NCBI GenBank assembly: GCA_024275825.1
Contig: JAJRYK010000020.1
Span: 62,001-126,000, forward strand
Source of the DNA: Alphaproteobacteria bacterium
GTDB taxonomy: Bacteria > Pseudomonadota > Alphaproteobacteria > Micavibrionales > Micavibrionaceae
Direction: 5' to 3'
Length of the DNA stretch: 64,000 nucleotides
Positions 27,730 to 42,352 of the stretch are shown here, piece by piece (the first letter of the stretch is position 1; each line of letters opens with the position of its first letter). The position numbers and the translations under genes were made by a program. The notes under the pieces are model-generated. The model did no database searches. It saw nothing but the letters and a program-made list of their open reading frames with translations, and was not told where the DNA came from.

Positions 27730-29166
27730 ATGGCGATGGTCCCCTCTGATCTCAACATCAAAGCCTTGAGCGGCGTCACGCAGGATAGTCGCCGTGTGAA
27801 AGCCGGCTGTCTGTTCGCCGCTCTGCCCGGCGCGAAGGCGGATGGACGCAATTTCATTCAGGCCGCGATCAATAATGGCGCATCCGTTATTCTCGCCCCG
27901 ACCGGCACATTGTTGCCAGAGGGCGTTAAGGCGGGCGTAGTGCAGCTGATCACTGACGATTACCCGCGCCGTGCATTCGCACATATCGCCGCCGCGTTTT
28001 ATGGCCGCCAGCCAGAGCATATCGTTGCGGTGACGGGCACGAATGGCAAAAGCTCGACTGTGCATTTCGTTAAGCAGCTTTGGGAGGCGCAGGGCAAGCG
28101 TGCGGTTAGCTATGGCACGCTGGGCGTTCATGGTGGCGGGGTTGAAAAAGCCAGCGCGCTGACCACGCCGGGCCCGGAAATGCTCCATGCTGATCTGGCT
28201 GATTTGACGGCGGGCGGCGTGACGCACTTAGCGCTGGAGGCTTCTAGTCACGGCCTTGATCAGCGCCGTTTGGATGGTGTGAAAATCAGCGCGGCGGCTT
28301 TTACAAACCTCTCGCATGATCATCTGGATTATCATGAAAACATGGAGATCTACCGCGAAGCAAAGGCACGTTTGTTTGATGTGATGGAGAGCGGTACGGC
28401 AGTTTTAAACGCCGACAGCGATTATTTCGATGCGATGAAGAACGCCGCAGAAAAAGCGGGTCACAAGATTATATCCTATGGTTTCAAGGGTGATGACCTG
28501 AAAATTGTTGAGATCACGCCCGCACCGCATGGGCAGCAGGTTGCGTTGGAGGTTTTTGGCAAAGCCTATGATGTTGCCCTGCCGCTGGTGGGTCAGTTTC
28601 AGGTGAAAAATGCTTTGGCGGCGTTGGGGCTTGTTTTGGCGGAAGATTGTGGCGCGCAAGACGAGCTTGTGAAATCTTTGGAGCATTTAAGTGGTGCGCC
28701 GGGCCGTCTTGAGCTTATTGGTGGTCATCCGAAGGGCGCGGCGGTTTATGTTGATTATGCGCACACGCCGGATGCGTTAGAGAGTGTTTTAACCGCGCTG
28801 CGCCCCCATACGGCAGGGCGGCTGGTGTGTGTGTTTGGCTGCGGCGGGTCGCGTGATCGATCAAAACGTCCGGTGATGGGCGAGATTGCCGCCCGCCTTG
28901 CTGATCATGTGATGGTCACGGATGATAATCCGCGCAGTGAAAATCCGGCTGATATTCGCGCGGAAATTTTGGCCGCTGCTGATGGGGCGCAGGAAATTGC
29001 AGAGCGCCGCGAAGCGATCCAAAGCGCCATAGAATATTTAAACGCTGGCGATGTTTTGGTGATCGCCGGAAAGGGGCACGAGCAGGGGCAAGTTTATGCC
29101 GCCCAAACGCTGCCCTTTGATGATTGTGAAGAAGCCAGAAAAGCCATAGAGGAATTAGCATCATAA
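27730..29166 (+). CDS. murE: UDP-MurNAc-L-Ala-D-Glu:meso-diaminopimelate ligase
   Basis: A 478-residue Mur ligase adding the third residue of the stem peptide. Domain 1 has SGVTQDSRRVKAGCLFAALPG; the ATP loop is VTGTNGKSSTVHF; HDHLDYHENMEIYREAKARLF carries the carbamylated Lys. DNPR at residues 399-402 marks meso-DAP specificity. Start ATG 27730 with GAAGGGAG upstream. It overlaps the next gene by one base (TAATG). It provides the tripeptide on which a MurF must act, which matters because the neighbouring murF looks inactive. Confidence 0.96.
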   Translation: MAMVPSDLNIKALSGVTQDSRRVKAGCLFAALPGAKADGRNFIQAAINNGASVILAPTGTLLPEGVKAGVVQLITDDYPRRAFAHIAAAFYGRQPEHIVAVTGTNGKSSTVHFVKQLWEAQGKRAVSYGTLGVHGGGVEKASALTTPGPEMLHADLADLTAGGVTHLALEASSHGLDQRRLDGVKISAAAFTNLSHDHLDYHENMEIYREAKARLFDVMESGTAVLNADSDYFDAMKNAAEKAGHKIISYGFKGDDLKIVEITPAPHGQQVALEVFGKAYDVALPLVGQFQVKNALAALGLVLAEDCGAQDELVKSLEHLSGAPGRLELIGGHPKGAAVYVDYAHTPDALESVLTALRPHTAGRLVCVFGCGGSRDRSKRPVMGEIAARLADHVMVTDDNPRSENPADIRAEILAAADGAQEIAERREAIQSAIEYLNAGDVLVIAGKGHEQGQVYAAQTLPFDDCEEARKAIEELAS

Positions 29167-30431
29167 TGAGCAGTAATAATGACATCATCTGGACATCAAC
29201 GGAGGCGGAGGCTGTGACCGGGGGGCGCAGCACGCAGGACTGGTGCGCGTCTGGCGTGTCGATCAATATTGATGATGTGAGGCCCGGTGATCTTTATATC
29301 GCCACGCGTGATGATGATTTGTCCAAGGTGTTTGCTGCGGGCGCTGTCGCCGCTGTGGTGGCGGTTGGTCGGCACGCAGATTGCCCGTGGCCGTTGCTGG
29401 AGGTCGGGGTCGTGTTTGAAGCGCTGCAGGATTTGGCCAGAGCAGCGCGTTATAAAACCCATGCGCATATTATCGCGGTGCAGTCCCGTGATGCGCGATT
29501 GAAAATTCATGATGTCCTGCGCCGTGTTGGCAGCGTGCATGAGGGCGGGCGGCATCTCTCGCTTGGCCTTGCGGGTGTGCCGGAAAATATTGATTACGGG
29601 CTGTTTGGGTTTTCACCCTTTGCGCAGTCCGATATTGCGGTGATTACGGGCGCGGCCTCTACGCGCTGTGACATGCTGTTTGAAACGATGCCCGTTCATG
29701 GCACCGTTTTACTTGATCGTGATAGTGATGAGTTTTTGTCGCTTGTGGCGCGGGCGAAGGCGGCGGGCGTTCAGAATATTCTAAGCTTCGGTCATCATGC
29801 ACAGGCTGATGCGCGCATCATAGAATTGTTTAGCGCCAGTAATGCCACGCGCGTTGTCGTAAAAATTTTGGGTAAGCCGCATAGCTTTACCCTGGGGCCT
29901 GATCAACGCTTTACGCCAGCCATGCTCGCGGGGTTGTTGATTTCAAAAATCACAGGCAAGACATGTGCCCGCGCTGTGAGAAGCTTTGAGGCCGATCGCG
30001 TGCATTCAGCGATAGTGCCGGGACAGGTTTCACTGATTGATCCTGCGCTTCAGCAAAATCTGTTGCCCGAAGCGGTGTTTAAGGTCACCAATATGATAGA
30101 TCTGGGCTTTGGCCGCCAAACGGCCATTCTTGATAATCTCGGGAATTTTAGCCAAAAAGCACTGTGTTTTCCAAAGAAAGAGCTGGCTATCCCGAAACGG
30201 GTTGATAATCTAAATCTCATGTATACGAACAAAACAGTTGGCGCGGTGCGCAATGCCCATGATGCGATCCGTAAAAACCAGCGGCAGGGGCAGTTAGAGG
30301 CGATCTCGCCCGATGTCCTCGCGCCCGGTGATTTTGTGGTGTTTAAGGATATCCGCAAGCACTCAAGGGCTGTATTTTCAGAGGCGCTGCGCCTTATTCC
30401 AACATTAAAAAAGGCTTCCAATGCTGTATAA
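29166..30431 (+). CDS. Degenerate MurF-like protein lacking the ATP-binding loop
   Basis: 421 residues in the normal murF place. The N-terminal 1-70 matches MurF domain 1 ([31 protein letters not shown]), and the rest follows MurF in order and length. The GxxGKT loop should be at about residues 103-113; instead the protein has [17 protein letters not shown]. The DDAYNANP signature is replaced by [12 protein letters not shown] at about 290-301. No frameshift or stop is present, and start and stop couplings to murE and mraY are kept, so it is probably maintained as a non-ATPase protein. It may bind UDP-MurNAc-tripeptide or serve as a partner of the membrane MurF-like ligase at 38596-40230; this is inference. 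Confidence 0.8.
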
Positions 30432-31503
30432 TCTCCTCGTTCCTTTGGCCGAAGACGTGCAGATTTTCAATCTGTTTCGCTATTTAACCTTCCGCACCGG
30501 CGGGGCGATTATGACGGCGCTGGTGATCAGCTTTATCATCGGCCCGCGTATGATTGACTGGCTGCGCGCGAAGCAGAAAAGGGGCCAGCCGATCCGCGAA
30601 GATGGCCCAGCGCATTTCGCAAAGGCCGGCACGCCGACGATGGGCGGGCTGATGATTTTGATCTCGGTGACGGTCTCGACGCTGCTCTGGTCAGACTTAA
30701 CCAATCCGCTGGTCTGGTACACGGTGCTGGTGATGGTTGGCTATGGCGCGATTGGGTTTCCTGATGATTATTTGAAGGTCAGTAAGCACAATACGAAGGG
30801 CCTGTCCGGCAAATTAAAGCTGCTGTTCCAAACCATCATCGCCCTTGTGGCGACTTATGGTATGGTACAGGCGATGCCGGATAATATCAGCCATCATGTC
30901 GCTATTCCGTTCTTTAAGGATTTCATGATTTATCTGTCTGGCGGGTTTTTCGTCTGGGCGGTTTTTGTGATGGTTTGCGCGTCGAATGCGGTGAATTTGA
31001 CTGATGGCCTCGATGGTTTGGCGATTGTCCCGGTCGCGATCGCGGCCGGGTCGTTTGGCTTGATTTGTTATCTGGTGGGTAACGAGGTGTTCTCGAGTTA
31101 TCTCCAAATCTCATACGTGCCCGGCACGGGCGAGCTGGCGATCTTGTGCGGCGCGCTGATTGGCGGGGCGATGGGGTTCCTCTGGTTCAACGCACCTCCG
31201 GCGATGATTTTCATGGGCGATACAGGCTCGCTCGCCATGGGCGGCGTGCTTGGCGCGATTGCCGTGGCGACGAAGCACGAGCTGGTGCTGGCCATCATCG
31301 GCGGCCTGTTTGTGCTTGAAACCGTTTCAGTGATTATTCAGGTCGTGTCCTTCAAATTAACCGGCAAGCGCGTTTTCGCCATGGCCCCCATCCACCACCA
31401 TTTCGAGAAAAAAGGCTGGTCCGAGCCAACGATCGTGATCCGCTTCTGGATCATCGCGATGATCCTGGCGCTGGTGGGGCTGGCGACGTTGAAGCTGAGA
31501 TGA
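30421..31503 (+). CDS. mraY: Phospho-MurNAc-pentapeptide translocase MraY
   Basis: A 360-residue polytopic enzyme joining phospho-MurNAc-pentapeptide to undecaprenyl phosphate to form lipid I. Motifs: the TMGG loop ([11 protein letters not shown]), [17 protein letters not shown] with the paired Asp residues, [27 protein letters not shown], and the C-terminal [21 protein letters not shown]. About ten membrane helices. It overlaps the murF-like gene by 11 bases and murD by four. Normal length, all catalytic residues present. Confidence 0.96.
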
Positions 31504-37396: not shown

Positions 37397-38506
37397 TTGA
37401 CTAAACAGCAAAAATATCAGGCCCACAGGGGCAAAAAAACCAGGCTAACTGGACCCACAAAGCTGGGCCCACTCGGCGCGGTTCGTGGCACATTGACCGA
37501 AAATGCACCGCTGGGCGCGCAGAGCTGGTTTCGCTGTGGCGGGGCGGCGGATTTGCTTTTTGAACCTGCTGATATTGATGATCTGGCGGCGTTTCTTTCT
37601 CATCACAATACTGCGCCCTCTCCCCTTGGGGGAGAGGGTTGGGGTGAGGGGGGTCCTGATGAGTGTGAGGGGGATAAAGATTCCAAGCATAGAGAAGCGC
37701 CCCCTCACCCTACCCCTCTCCCCGAGGGGAGGGGGGGCATTACTGTGCTCGGCGGCTTGGCCAATACCATCATTCGCGATGGTGGTGTGCGCGGCATTGT
37801 GGTGCAGCTCGGCAAGCCATTTGCAGCAGTTAGCGTGATGGATGAGCGCTATATTCACGCTGGGGCGGGCGCTCTCAATGGCACGGTGGCTGCGGCTGCG
37901 GCGAAGGCGGGTATTGGTGGGCTAGAGTTTCTATCCGGCATTCCGGGCACTGTCGGCGGCGCGCTGGCGATGAATGCGGGCGCGTATGGCACGGAGGTAA
38001 AAGATGTTCTGATTGGCGCTGAGGCGCTGAATAGTTCTGGCGAATCACAAAAATTCACAGTTGATGATCTAAATATGAGCTATCGTCACACGGATGTGCC
38101 CGATGGCACAGTTTTCATGGGCGCTATTTTTAAAGGCCAGTGTGAAGATAAAGTCGACGTAAAGGCTCGCCTGAAAGACATCAAGAAAAAGCGCAATGAC
38201 ACTCAGCCGATCAGCGAAAAAACTGGCGGCTCCACCTTCGCCAATCCATCCGCGATAGAGTTAGAGGCTGCGGGCTTGCCTGAAGGCACGCGGGCCTGGC
38301 AAGTGGTGGAAATGGTCGATGGTCGCGGCTTTTCAATAGGCGGCGCGCAGATGAGCGAGAAGCATTGCAATTTTATGATCAATACTGGTGATGCTACCGC
38401 GAATGACTTAGAAATGCTCGGCGATGAGCTCCGCACCCGCGCGCGTGCTAAATTTGGCTTAGATCTGCATTGGGAGATTAGGCGGATAGGAGAGAGAAAG
38501 GGTTAA
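37397..38506 (+). CDS. murB: UDP-N-acetylenolpyruvoylglucosamine reductase with an in-frame repeat insertion
   Basis: A 369-residue FAD enzyme reducing enolpyruvyl-UDP-GlcNAc to UDP-MurNAc. MurB landmarks: LTENAPLGAQSWFRCGGAADLLFEP, VLGGLANTIIRDGG, FLSGIPGTVGGALAMNAGAYG, SYRHTDVP, KTGGSTFANP, GRGFSIGGAQMSEKHCNF. Between AAFLSHH and ITVLGG, where relatives have a few residues, about 44 extra residues (rich in Pro, Gly and Glu) are encoded by two inverted G-rich repeats at 37616-37737. The likely start is TTG 37397; the upstream region and first codons share a 14-base near-duplicate (CTAACTGGGCCCAC). The insertion lies in a surface loop of the FAD domain, so the enzyme may still work. Confidence 0.9.
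   Translation: MTKQQKYQAHRGKKTRLTGPTKLGPLGAVRGTLTENAPLGAQSWFRCGGAADLLFEPADIDDLAAFLSHHNTAPSPLGGEGWGEGGPDECEGDKDSKHREAPPHPTPLPEGRGGITVLGGLANTIIRDGGVRGIVVQLGKPFAAVSVMDERYIHAGAGALNGTVAAAAAKAGIGGLEFLSGIPGTVGGALAMNAGAYGTEVKDVLIGAEALNSSGESQKFTVDDLNMSYRHTDVPDGTVFMGAIFKGQCEDKVDVKARLKDIKKKRNDTQPISEKTGGSTFANPSAIELEAAGLPEGTRAWQVVEMVDGRGFSIGGAQMSEKHCNFMINTGDATANDLEMLGDELRTRARAKFGLDLHWEIRRIGERKG
37616..37737. repeat. Inverted pair of G-rich palindromic repeats inside murB
   Basis: Unit 1 (37616-37653) has the head CCTCTCCCCTTGGGGGAGAGG and tail GTTGGGGTGAGGGG. Unit 2 (about 37698-37737) is the same design inverted (CCCCTCACCCTACCCCTCTCCCCGAGGGGAGG). They are separated by about 44 bases. The whole pair keeps the murB reading frame open and is translated. 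It matches the intergenic pair at 6421-6521. Unit 1 also fits a G-quadruplex pattern on the coding strand. Confidence 0.85.
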
Positions 38507-38595: not shown

Positions 38596-40230
38596 TTACA
38601 ATTTAGGAATGCGCTCATAAATATCGGGCAGGTCATTTTCGAGCAAGACGATATCACCAACACGCTTGAAATCGCTGAGGCGGTCGGCGGCATCAGCAAA
38701 GCTTTTGACCTCCACCAGCGTTTTTCCGGTTCCGGTCTCGTAGAAGCCATCGATAAAGGTCGGAATGCGATCCGGATTGACCACGATGGTGATATCACAG
38801 ATCTTTCCGGCATGTCGTCCGGCGGTGTGATGGGCCTTATCATGCGCCCCACCCAGCTCCACCATACCGGGCGTTATGAGAATTTTCCGACCGTTTTTAT
38901 TTTGTTTTTCGGTCAGTGTGTTGAGCAAATCCAAAGCCATCGCAAACCCGGTTGGGTTGGAATTATAAGCATCGTCAATAATCGTTGTACCATCAGCTTG
39001 TGGTTTGACTTCTAGGCGATGCGGAATTTGCGGAATGCTTTTGAGCGCTGTTTTGATGAATTCCGGATCAATACCAAGCTCGATCGCAGTGGCAAAGGCG
39101 AGCGCGATATTATGGCCGTGATGAAGGCCAAAAAGCGGCGCGCGAAGGCTGTAGAATTTCTCTTTCCAATTAATGTTCACTTCCAGCTCGTCGACGAGCT
39201 GTTCAACATCAAGGATCTCTAAATCATCTTTGGTCAGATAGTGCTCTTCTTTTGTCTTGTGAATTTGGGGATCAAAGCTTTCGCCGCAAACGGTGAAGAA
39301 ATGCGAGTTTGTATCGCGGATATGACGTGGATGATCATAGCGCAAAGTGCGTTCATGAACGATCACCTTGCCCTTGCGTGAGAGCACATCTTCGGCAAGC
39401 TCATACTTGGCTTGAGCGACATTCTCCATCGTGCCAAAGCGCTCGTAATGTGCATGACCGATGGCCGTGATAATGCCCATATTTGGCGGCGTAAGCGCGC
39501 AAAGCCGCGCAATCGATCCTGGTCCATATGCACCCATTTCAACCACGAAATAGCGGTGCGATTCGTTTAAATCTTCGCGGATCACGCGCGTGATTCCCAT
39601 CGGCGTATTGACGCTTCCGGGTGTGATCAAGGTCGCGCCTTGGGTTCTTAGAATGTGGCCGAGAATGTGTTTGACGGAGGTTTTGCCAAACGATCCGGTG
39701 ATGGCGATGATTTTGGGGTTGAGATCCTGGATTTTGTTTTTAGCTTCTTGCATAAAATCATTTTGGATTTTCTTTTCTGTCATGCTGAGCAGCATGTTGC
39801 TGAGCACGAGAATAAAGGGGATCAGCTGGACGCTGATAATCCAGCTCCACGGCATGAGGAATATGTTGGGAATGGCGAGTAGCGCGAGGATGATAATCGC
39901 CGGTGTTAATGTGCGTTTGACGCGGTTGGTCAAAGCGAGTTTTTTCTTGGCTTCCTTGCGCGGATCTTTTTCGAAATAGGCGATGAGCAGGAATGCGGCG
40001 AAGGTAGCAAAATTACTCGCGAGCGGTGGAACGATGAGGGATGCGCCGCCAATTATGATGAGCAGAAGGCTCATCCGCGTATCAAAAACCTTGTGCCGGA
40101 AGATCCAGGCGAGGAAGCGTCCATTATCGTATTCCTCTTGCTGGAAAGCGTGCATATAGGTGAGTAAGCGTTTGCTGGCGAAGGCCAGGTATGCGAGGAG
40201 AACAAATGCGGTGGTGATATGTTCGATCAT
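38596..40230 (-). CDS. Membrane-anchored MurF-like ligase
   Basis: 544 residues. The first about 150 contain four or five hydrophobic helices (about 5-24, 50-75, 76-88, 108-126, 127-150) in place of MurF domain 1. After that comes a full Mur ligase catalytic unit: GSFGKT loop at 179-184, NTPMGITRVI, VVEMGAYGPGSIARL, GHAHYERFG with Lys275 (AQAKYELAE) as the probable carbamylated Lys, and DDAYNSNP at 419-426, the MurF signature. It therefore keeps exactly the motifs missing from the protein at 29166-30431. It may add D-Ala-D-Ala at the membrane, or act on a lipid-linked or other substrate. It forms a two-gene reverse-strand unit with the hydrolase, four bases away. Confidence 0.82.
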   Translation of the reverse strand: MIEHITTAFVLLAYLAFASKRLLTYMHAFQQEEYDNGRFLAWIFRHKVFDTRMSLLLIIIGGASLIVPPLASNFATFAAFLLIAYFEKDPRKEAKKKLALTNRVKRTLTPAIIILALLAIPNIFLMPWSWIISVQLIPFILVLSNMLLSMTEKKIQNDFMQEAKNKIQDLNPKIIAITGSFGKTSVKHILGHILRTQGATLITPGSVNTPMGITRVIREDLNESHRYFVVEMGAYGPGSIARLCALTPPNMGIITAIGHAHYERFGTMENVAQAKYELAEDVLSRKGKVIVHERTLRYDHPRHIRDTNSHFFTVCGESFDPQIHKTKEEHYLTKDDLEILDVEQLVDELEVNINWKEKFYSLRAPLFGLHHGHNIALAFATAIELGIDPEFIKTALKSIPQIPHRLEVKPQADGTTIIDDAYNSNPTGFAMALDLLNTLTEKQNKNGRKILITPGMVELGGAHDKAHHTAGRHAGKICDITIVVNPDRIPTFIDGFYETGTGKTLVEVKSFADAADRLSDFKRVGDIVLLENDLPDIYERIPKL

Positions 40231-40234
40231 GCTT

Positions 40235-41005
40235 TTATGATGTTAATTGTTCAATAAATTTTTTCAAATGCGGCGTTACCTGATGTCTGGAGGCACCCAA
40301 AATAGTGTAATGGTCTAATCCCTCAAACTCAATAAAATCGGCATCTTTAATAAGTTTACTCAGTCGTTTGCCAATTTCCGGCGGCGTTTCAGTGTCTTTC
40401 GTGCCATAGGCGAGCTTTACAGGACAGGTAATTTGGCCAACGGTGTTTGTTAAATCCTCCGCGTTGACTTTGAGCATGATTGGGCGCATTGGGCCGGCAT
40501 TGCGGTAATCCGGGCTGCCGAATTTACTTTTGATCCAGTTTTCATTCAGGCCGAGCGGGACGAGTTTTTTGCAGGCTTTGAAAGTGTAAACTTTGGAATA
40601 GAGTGAAATATTTTCAAGGAGGCTCCGTTTCCGCCTTAAACCAGCGCCACCAATGAGGAAGAGGCCGGAGATGAGATCGGGATGGTTGATGGCCATTTGC
40701 AAACCAACACGGCAACCAAAGGAATGACCTACCCAAATGATTGTGTCTGTCTTTAGAGATTTTATAAACTCTGCCATCGCATCCGCGTAATCGGCCGTTG
40801 ACCAGGCAGCGTGCGGCACGGGCGAAGCGCCAAAGCCGGGAAAATCTATGGTGATATGGTGCGCGATGGATTGGAATGACTGGGTGAACGGCAGAAATGC
40901 GGCGTGGCTTTGTCCCCAACCATGCGCCCATAGAATAGTTGGGCCATCCGGGTTTCCAGATGCCCTGTAATGGATTTCGGTGCTGTCGCTTTTATAGATC
41001 TGCAA
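40235..41005 (-). CDS. Alpha/beta hydrolase paired with the membrane MurF-like ligase
   Basis: A 256-residue alpha/beta hydrolase without signal peptide. Oxyanion-hole region LWAHGWGQSHAAF, nucleophile elbow GHSFG (the Ser at about residue 94), an acid on a late strand (GTKDTETPPE) and catalytic His in LDHYTI. The fold fits carboxylesterase or thioesterase-like enzymes; the substrate is unknown. It lies four bases upstream of the MurF-like ligase gene on the same strand, so the pair is co-transcribed against the direction of the dcw cluster. A link to peptidoglycan or lipid-carrier chemistry is a guess from position. Confidence 0.75.
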   Translation of the reverse strand: MQIYKSDSTEIHYRASGNPDGPTILWAHGWGQSHAAFLPFTQSFQSIAHHITIDFPGFGASPVPHAAWSTADYADAMAEFIKSLKTDTIIWVGHSFGCRVGLQMAINHPDLISGLFLIGGAGLRRKRSLLENISLYSKVYTFKACKKLVPLGLNENWIKSKFGSPDYRNAGPMRPIMLKVNAEDLTNTVGQITCPVKLAYGTKDTETPPEIGKRLSKLIKDADFIEFEGLDHYTILGASRHQVTPHLKKFIEQLTS

Positions 41006-41098: not shown

Positions 41099-42352
41099 AT
41101 GTCCCAGTCAAAAAACACAAAGTCCAAAAAAATAGTTGCCGTTTTCTTTGGCGGACGTTCGCCTGAGCATGATGTGAGCGTCATTAGTGCGCTGCAGGTG
41201 ATGCAGGCAATTGATGCCAGCATGTATGAGGTTTTGCCTGTTTATATCACGCCGGACGGGCGATGGGTGACGGGGGATATCCTGCGGGAGCGCTCTAATT
41301 ATCTGCTGGACAAAAATGGCTGGAAACAGGTGCAAGAGGTAACGCTGGACGTTGCGCTAGCGGATGGCACGCGGCGTAAAGGTGCGTTGCTTCCGAAGAG
41401 AGGTGGTTTGTTCGGCGGAGGTAAGCCTATTGAGTTTGATGTGGCGCTGCCGGTTTTTCATGGGCTGTTTGGTGAGGATGGAAATGTTCAAGGGCTGTTT
41501 GAATTAGCGGGCGTGCCGTTTGCTGGGCCGCGCGCGAAGGATGCGGCTGTGTTTATGGATAAAGTCACAACAAAGCAGGTGATGAGCACGCTCGGCATTC
41601 CGAATTTGCCTTATGCGGTTTTGCAGCGTCCGGATGAGGGATATATGATTGCGGCTTCTGTCATTGAGGATGCGCTTAAAACTGGCGGCGTACGTTATCC
41701 GTGCATTATTAAGCCGGTGCATCTGGGGAGCTCTATTGGTGTCGCGAAATGTCAAAATGTGGAAGAAATTGCGGCGTGTTTGCCTACGATTTTTGAGAGT
41801 GATGACTGCGCGATTGTCGAGCCGGCCGTTCAGAATTTGGTGGAGTATAATGTGGCGGTTTGCCGTGTTGAGGGTGAAACCAGAACCTCGGCCATTGAGC
41901 GCCCAAAGGCGACAGAAGAGTTGCTGGACTTTAAGCGAAAATATCTCTCTGGTGGTGACAATAAGGGCGGCACGAAGAGCGGCACGAAAGCGCCGGGACA
42001 GAGCAGTGAGGGGATGTTGTCGCTGACGCGGGAGCTGAATCCAAAGCTTGAGGTGGCGATGGAAGAGAATATCAGAACGTGGTCAGCGCGGCTATTTGAT
42101 GGCATTGGCGCGAGCGGCGCGCCGCGGATTGACTATCTTTGTGACAGTAAAACCGGCGAGATATGGATGAATGAGGTTAATCCCATTCCCGGCTCTTACG
42201 GATATTTTTTATGGGAGGCGGCGGACAAGTCTTTACTCTTTAGCGAATTTCTATCACTCTTAATAGATGAGGCGTGCCGTGAGCGCCGGAAGAAAACATT
42301 GCCGAAAGATCCTGTTCCTGTGGACGCGCGGCTTCTTAAACGACCTGTATAA
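41099..42352 (+). CDS. ddl: D-alanine:D-alanine ligase, long variant
   Basis: A 417-residue ATP-grasp ligase in the ddl place of the dcw cluster. It has VFFGGRSPEHDVSVISA, FHGLFGEDGNVQGLFELAGVPFAGP, CIIKPVHLGSSIGVAK and IDYLCD...NEVNPIPGS. It is about 100 residues longer than the usual cluster DdlB (about 305). Its late motifs (ELLDFKRKYLSGG..., NPIPGSYGYFLWE) look like the form common in Clostridia rather than the NTxPGFT form. An insert of Gly/Ser/Lys-rich sequence follows at about residues 282-300. Product specificity (D-Ala versus D-Lac or D-Ser) cannot be proven by eye. Confidence 0.88.
   Translation: MSQSKNTKSKKIVAVFFGGRSPEHDVSVISALQVMQAIDASMYEVLPVYITPDGRWVTGDILRERSNYLLDKNGWKQVQEVTLDVALADGTRRKGALLPKRGGLFGGGKPIEFDVALPVFHGLFGEDGNVQGLFELAGVPFAGPRAKDAAVFMDKVTTKQVMSTLGIPNLPYAVLQRPDEGYMIAASVIEDALKTGGVRYPCIIKPVHLGSSIGVAKCQNVEEIAACLPTIFESDDCAIVEPAVQNLVEYNVAVCRVEGETRTSAIERPKATEELLDFKRKYLSGGDNKGGTKSGTKAPGQSSEGMLSLTRELNPKLEVAMEENIRTWSARLFDGIGASGAPRIDYLCDSKTGEIWMNEVNPIPGSYGYFLWEAADKSLLFSEFLSLLIDEACRERRKKTLPKDPVPVDARLLKRPV

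Follow-up and report, generated by a model that had tools for sequence, protein, structure and literature searches.

The window, i.e. the whole stretch of 64,000 nucleotides that we analysed, encodes a membrane form of the Mur ligase MurF (membrane MurF hereafter), two genes that travel with it and a dead murF between murE and mraY. The features are as follows, with their coordinates in the window and their strand.

27730..29166 (+): murE, intact, the upstream neighbour of the MurF relic
29166..30431 (+): dead MurF relic, 421 aa, between murE and mraY, with the catalytic and uridine-site motifs lost
30421..31503 (+): mraY, intact, the downstream neighbour of the relic
38596..40230 (-): membrane MurF, 544 aa, the only MurF-like ligase of the genome with catalytic motifs
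39736..40230 (-): N-terminal membrane module of membrane MurF (aa 1-165), about five transmembrane helices at the place of MurF domain 1
39085..39702 (-): Mur ligase central domain of membrane MurF (aa 177-382), with the P-loop TGSFGKT and K275xE277
38641..39021 (-): Mur ligase C-terminal domain of membrane MurF (aa 404-530), with HRLEV, IDDAYNSNP and PGMVELG
40235..41005 (-): alpha/beta hydrolase, 4 nt upstream of membrane MurF and in the same operon
41099..42352 (+): Ddl', 417 aa, a divergent D-Ala-D-Ala ligase of a distinct subfamily and the only Ddl in the genome

Membrane MurF has the catalytic part of a MurF ligase behind an N-terminal membrane module. Pfam assigns Mur_ligase_M to residues 177-382 (3.4e-31) and Mur_ligase_C to residues 404-530, and the Pfam search did not find the N-terminal UDP-binding domain 1 (Mur_ligase), at the place of which there are about five hydrophobic segments within the first ~165 residues. 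The top NCBIfam match is TIGR01143 (murF) with 203 bits at model positions 62-403 of 418, below the cut-off of 288.6 bits and without spanning the full model. The original prediction of a MurF-type ligase with domain 1 replaced by membrane helices thus holds. All membrane forms scored against TIGR01143, in the 58 close relatives and in other genomes, gave 158-247 bits, and those of the close relatives start near model position 65. The motifs said to be intact (GSFGKT, the carbamyl-Lys region and DDAYNSNP) could all be read in the ORF, namely the P-loop TGSFGKT at 178-184, K275xE277 and IDDAYNSNP at 418-426, and the core residues of the P-loop, the Lys/Glu region and DDxYN are invariant in an alignment of 17 homologues from two phyla.

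Its closest relatives by fold and by phylogeny are MurF proteins. The AF2 model (pLDDT 87) has a MurF-like ligase body, and its top fold matches are the MurF structures from Thermotoga, Acinetobacter and Pseudomonas; the best PDB sequence matches are MurF as well. A quick tree of the Mur ligase core domains, with support by SH-aLRT and no bootstrap, separates membrane MurF and canonical MurF into two clades, which are joined as sisters (SH-aLRT 98) and lie apart from MurC, MurD and MurE. Judging from these sequence comparisons, membrane MurF descends from the MurF branch of the Mur ligases.

The membrane module has a predicted positive-inside topology, with K/R-rich loops on the catalytic side (4 and 9 such residues) and none in the outer loops. 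The conserved residues of the cytosolic loops are R21, Q30 and Y34 in one group, and K95, K96, L98, T101 and R103 in the other. The membrane MurF proteins of Actinomycetota do not have the TM2-TM3 hairpin, and both conserved loops are retained there in fused form. That the loops are kept despite the loss of the hairpin fits a putative substrate-binding module at the membrane surface.

Our HMM searches, with each candidate of the first look taken on to scoring, found no canonical murF in the host genome (1.92 Mb, 99.8% complete). The six proteins with a Mur_ligase_M domain are MurC, MurD, MurE, membrane MurF, an Mpl-like protein and FolC, and none of them is a canonical MurF, in agreement with the expectation that a third, canonical murF would not be found. 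The Mpl-like protein is a MurC paralogue encoded elsewhere in the genome (G000:C14:54569-55057, L005).

The MurF relic at 29166-30431 has no Pfam match and its NCBIfam MurF matches are weak. It had been described as a domain 1 without catalytic motifs. The catalytic motifs are indeed missing (the P-loop, NNHxGVP and DESYNA), but domain 1 has also lost its D-[TS]-R motif, which lines the uridine site in MurE. The relic is not a pseudogene, since its between-species pN is well below pS with ratios like those of murE, indicating purifying selection; we used only pN versus pS here because dN/dS is close to synonymous saturation. Across the relatives the relic is long (370-430 aa) in seven genomes, reduced to a C-terminal piece of 141-154 aa in eight and absent in three (G037, G043 and G055), and it is also absent in Azospirillum halopraeferens.

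The original prediction proposed that the two proteins work as a split MurF, in which the relic would hold UDP-MurNAc-tripeptide for activation by the membrane protein. The presence of both genes in the host genome, the purifying selection on the relic and a domain 1 that is ~50% alike between species among the full-length relics, as in canonical MurF, would all be expected of such a pair. Yet D-[TS]-R is missing in 15 of the 15 relics aligned, the central and C-terminal domains are complete within membrane MurF itself, and domain 1 is not the part retained where the relic has shrunk, so the split model fails, and we regard it as extremely improbable. With the relic gone from four genomes and cut to its C-terminal piece in eight, a degenerate murF does not always accompany membrane MurF, and we rejected the relic as an obligate partner.

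In the eight genomes with a C-terminal piece, just the last ~120 residues of the relic survive, as an ORF between murE and mraY. These ORFs are also under purifying selection, e.g. L049:13816-14265 and L047:13813-14277. One possibility is that the surviving C-terminal part has a scaffold role beside MurE and MraY.

Membrane MurF is rarely found beside an intact canonical murF, as the original prediction had supposed. Among 58 close relatives classified with TIGR01143, 32 have canonical MurF only, 21 the membrane form only, none has both and five have neither. The canonical MurF of the 32 is full-length and above the cut-off, except for one copy at a contig end that covers positions 1-322. In the five genomes with neither, the dcw contig is missing or cut, because they lack a full mraY too. 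On a tree of murE and mraY, the MurF state requires six changes by parsimony, three of which are forced by well-supported branches.

The membrane form occurs well beyond the order of the host. We found it in 20 of 336 other Alphaproteobacteria sampled and, judged by score and span, in 24 of 296 sampled Actinomycetota; among the 398 Pseudomonadota sampled it is confined to Alphaproteobacteria. An intact canonical MurF is missing in 67 of the 73 genomes with membrane MurF in Alphaproteobacteria and Actinomycetota, although many genomes are MAGs and some absences may be assembly gaps. Of the 30 genomes that lack the membrane form and served as controls, 29 encode canonical MurF. Both enzymes are intact in the remaining six of the 73, with the motifs of canonical MurF read in four (G063, G064, G182 and G264) and intactness judged by score only in G971 and G993. 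Given these six genomes, the two forms are not mutually incompatible. The decay of murF can be followed stepwise in its own slot, from an intact gene (G182) through a decaying one in the same family (G285, where the canonical MurF of the dcw slot is dead, DTR, NNHxG and DESYNA having disappeared, and membrane MurF is present) to a dead full-length gene, a C-terminal scrap and finally no gene.

One genome (G232) encodes a 1027-aa MurE-MurF fusion (L143:1411-4494) along with membrane MurF. The MurF half of the fusion is dead, having kept domain 1 and the P-loop and lost the other catalytic motifs.

The genes that do travel with membrane MurF are the alpha/beta hydrolase and the distinct Ddl, which the original prediction had not linked to it. 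In the relatives, membrane MurF abuts or overlaps the hydrolase gene on the same strand with a typical gap of -4 nt, and Ddl' adjoins the pair, usually divergently. The three genes lie between murB and ftsQ in the window, which is the place of the ordinary ddl in canonical relatives, and most of the relatives have them in dcw. The same three genes are found together in Actinomycetota. A search of a plasmid database gave no match of the module in plasmid records.

A palindromic element is inserted in frame in the neighbouring murB ORF (37397-38506), at 37616-37736 of the window and inside the FAD-binding domain, with arms of 37 nt that are 81% complementary. At 369 aa, MurB is longer here than in most relatives, where it has 284-335 aa. 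The element recurs at about ten sites of the host genome, and the insertion is reminiscent of the palindromic elements in coding sequences of Rickettsia.

The alpha/beta hydrolase is an intact serine hydrolase, with Ser95, Asp204 and His232 invariant in 31 homologues. Its fold search matched esterases and dehalogenases in general and did not point to a substrate.

Ddl' is a Ddl with an altered end. Both Ddl domains are present (PF01820 with 106 bits and PF07478 with 99 bits), and Ddl' is the sole PF07478 protein in most genomes with membrane MurF, including G182, G264, G285 and G063. Its identity with the Ddl proteins of canonical relatives is 21-33%. The usual motif of the second D-Ala site in those relatives, PGxTxxSxxP, is missing; the window has PGSYGYFLWE, and PGSxx[YF][FY]LW is found in all the full-length homologues inspected, from two phyla. 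The Ser of PGxTxxSxxP binds the carboxylate of the second D-Ala in DdlB, and the product of Ddl', which lacks this Ser, may differ from plain D-Ala-D-Ala.

An alternative hypothesis could be that the stem ends differently in these bacteria: Ddl' would join D-Ala to another D-residue or a hydroxy acid, membrane MurF would attach the product, and the hydrolase would edit or remove the wrong dipeptide. The replaced motif throughout the full-length Ddl' proteins and the strict linkage of an intact serine hydrolase are consistent with such a scheme. However, Ddl' retains K and Y as a pair in its omega loop (KRKYLS, as in D-Ala-D-Ala ligases), its closest solved relatives are D-Ala-D-Ala ligases, and genomes of the G182 type pair Ddl' with an intact canonical MurF, suggesting a D-Ala-D-Ala-like product. 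We consider a different stem end unlikely.

A cultured bacterium shows the same replacement. In Azospirillum halopraeferens DSM 3675, dcw has murE-mraY without murF and murB-ftsQ without ddl, and the three genes of the module lie on another contig. The sole MurF-type match in its genome of 6.5 Mb is the membrane form. In the remaining 59 genomes of the sample from this order, the membrane-MurF profile gave nothing but canonical-type matches, at about 141-172 bits and starting at profile position 171 or later, and all four order-mates that we tested have a full canonical MurF.

Our data suggest that a membrane paralogue of MurF quite probably replaced the soluble enzyme, as part of a module with Ddl' and the hydrolase that replaces MurF plus Ddl. 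Membrane MurF would add the terminal D-Ala-D-Ala or a similar dipeptide to the peptidoglycan stem, with the dipeptide supplied by Ddl' and the coupled hydrolase taking part in the module. The module would have been gained first, making the native ddl and then murF redundant, and the two genes would have decayed in that order. It could be asked whether the membrane ligase instead serves another polymer or a peptidoglycan modification, in cells with tripeptide stems or an unrelated MurF, as some remote members of the Mur ligase family work in other pathways (FolC, cyanophycin synthetase and Mpl). We find this very unlikely: in several lineages the loss of murF and ddl goes together with acquisition of the module, membrane MurF is a close sister to MurF rather than to the FolC- or Mpl-type ligases, and the module lies in dcw in most relatives. 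Membrane MurF is very likely a ligase that acts on a MurNAc-tripeptide.

Which form of the tripeptide is used is a more balanced matter. By analogy with MurT, we give a roughly even chance to a lipid-linked natural acceptor, i.e. the tripeptide form of lipid I or II, to which the dipeptide would be added after MraY while the basic cytosolic loops hold the acceptor near the membrane. We name this acceptor as the most likely one because MurT, the Mur ligase of the MurT/GatD lipid II isoglutaminyl synthase, is also without the UDP-binding domain and amidates lipid I/II and no UDP precursor (PMC6085368, PMC6113224). Addition of D-Ala-D-Ala after lipid linkage, which the original prediction had offered as its second option, is plausible. 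The fuller scheme, in which MraY and perhaps MurG work on the tripeptide form, the polytopic MurF adds the Ddl' dipeptide to lipid I/II at the inner membrane face and the hydrolase has an editing or accessory role, could be correct with a chance just short of even.

The other reading is that of a tethered enzyme with ordinary chemistry, which uses UDP-MurNAc-tripeptide and hands the pentapeptide form to MraY, its basic loops having taken over the pyrophosphate or uridine site. This reading is a tentative one, with a chance somewhat less than half. It would account for the repeated swaps between canonical and membrane MurF without a visible change in MraY, and for the six genomes with both enzymes, which are easy to understand if the substrate is shared; the conserved R/K of the loops could also bind the UDP pyrophosphate. 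On the other hand, the UDP-binding domain of all soluble Mur ligases is missing in membrane MurF, and MurT, the one well-studied relative without that domain, refuses UDP precursors (PMC6085368). No conserved alignment column in MraY separates the genomes with membrane MurF from those with canonical MurF, and the columns of MurG, FtsW, MurC, MurE and FtsI gave a few variable separating positions, which look like noise. MraY thus shows no sign of having adapted to a tripeptide substrate, which for the lipid-stage idea is neutral or slightly unfavourable. Overall, a lipid-linked acceptor and a tethered enzyme working on UDP-MurNAc-tripeptide are about equally probable.

MurF and Ddl are considered to be near-universal soluble steps, and they are antibiotic targets. 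If the replacement by the module is true, the last step of stem-peptide synthesis would be one that can shift to the membrane and be inherited as a module, and MurF and Ddl would have been displaced repeatedly in two phyla. Such bacteria would also be insensitive to inhibitors of soluble MurF. The idea is directly testable in the cultured A. halopraeferens DSM 3675, whose order-mates keep the canonical enzyme.

Pfam and NCBIfam hold no family model that covers the membrane form. Our search of open-access full text, with subscription journals and preprints outside its scope, gave no account of a membrane or MurF-like ligase of this kind, of an Azospirillum MurF or of a non-orthologous replacement, and the available excerpts of a survey of the Mur domain family (PMC11915815) describe known members with no membrane MurF among them.

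Canonical MurF (TIGR01143; PDB 1gg4, 4cvk/4cvm, 4qdi and 3zl8) shares with membrane MurF the central and C-terminal domains, the P-loop, the carbamyl-Lys region and DDxYN. It differs in having the UDP-binding domain 1 where membrane MurF has about five transmembrane helices with conserved cytosolic loops, and in its C-terminal motif, which is LVKGSxxxxM in canonical MurF and LLENDLPDxYE in the membrane form. The genes differ in location too, as that of membrane MurF is not between murE and mraY and is linked to the hydrolase and Ddl'. MurE-MurF fusions are known (PRK11929), and the one in G232 has a dead MurF half beside a membrane MurF. Ddl' resembles the D-Ala-D-Ala ligases (PF07478/PF01820; DdlB and S. 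aureus Ddl, 2i87) in both domains and in the paired K and Y of its omega loop, but ends in PGSxxYFLWE instead of PGxTxxSxxP and is always beside the hydrolase and membrane MurF in the relatives examined. MurT is like membrane MurF in being a Mur ligase without domain 1, in fold (Z 25.6) and in working with a hydrolase-type partner subunit. However, MurT is a soluble protein whose N-terminus is short and flexible, and it transfers ammonia from GatD, whereas membrane MurF has a transmembrane module, is closer to MurF and has as its neighbours Ddl' and an alpha/beta hydrolase, which is no glutaminase, rather than GatD.
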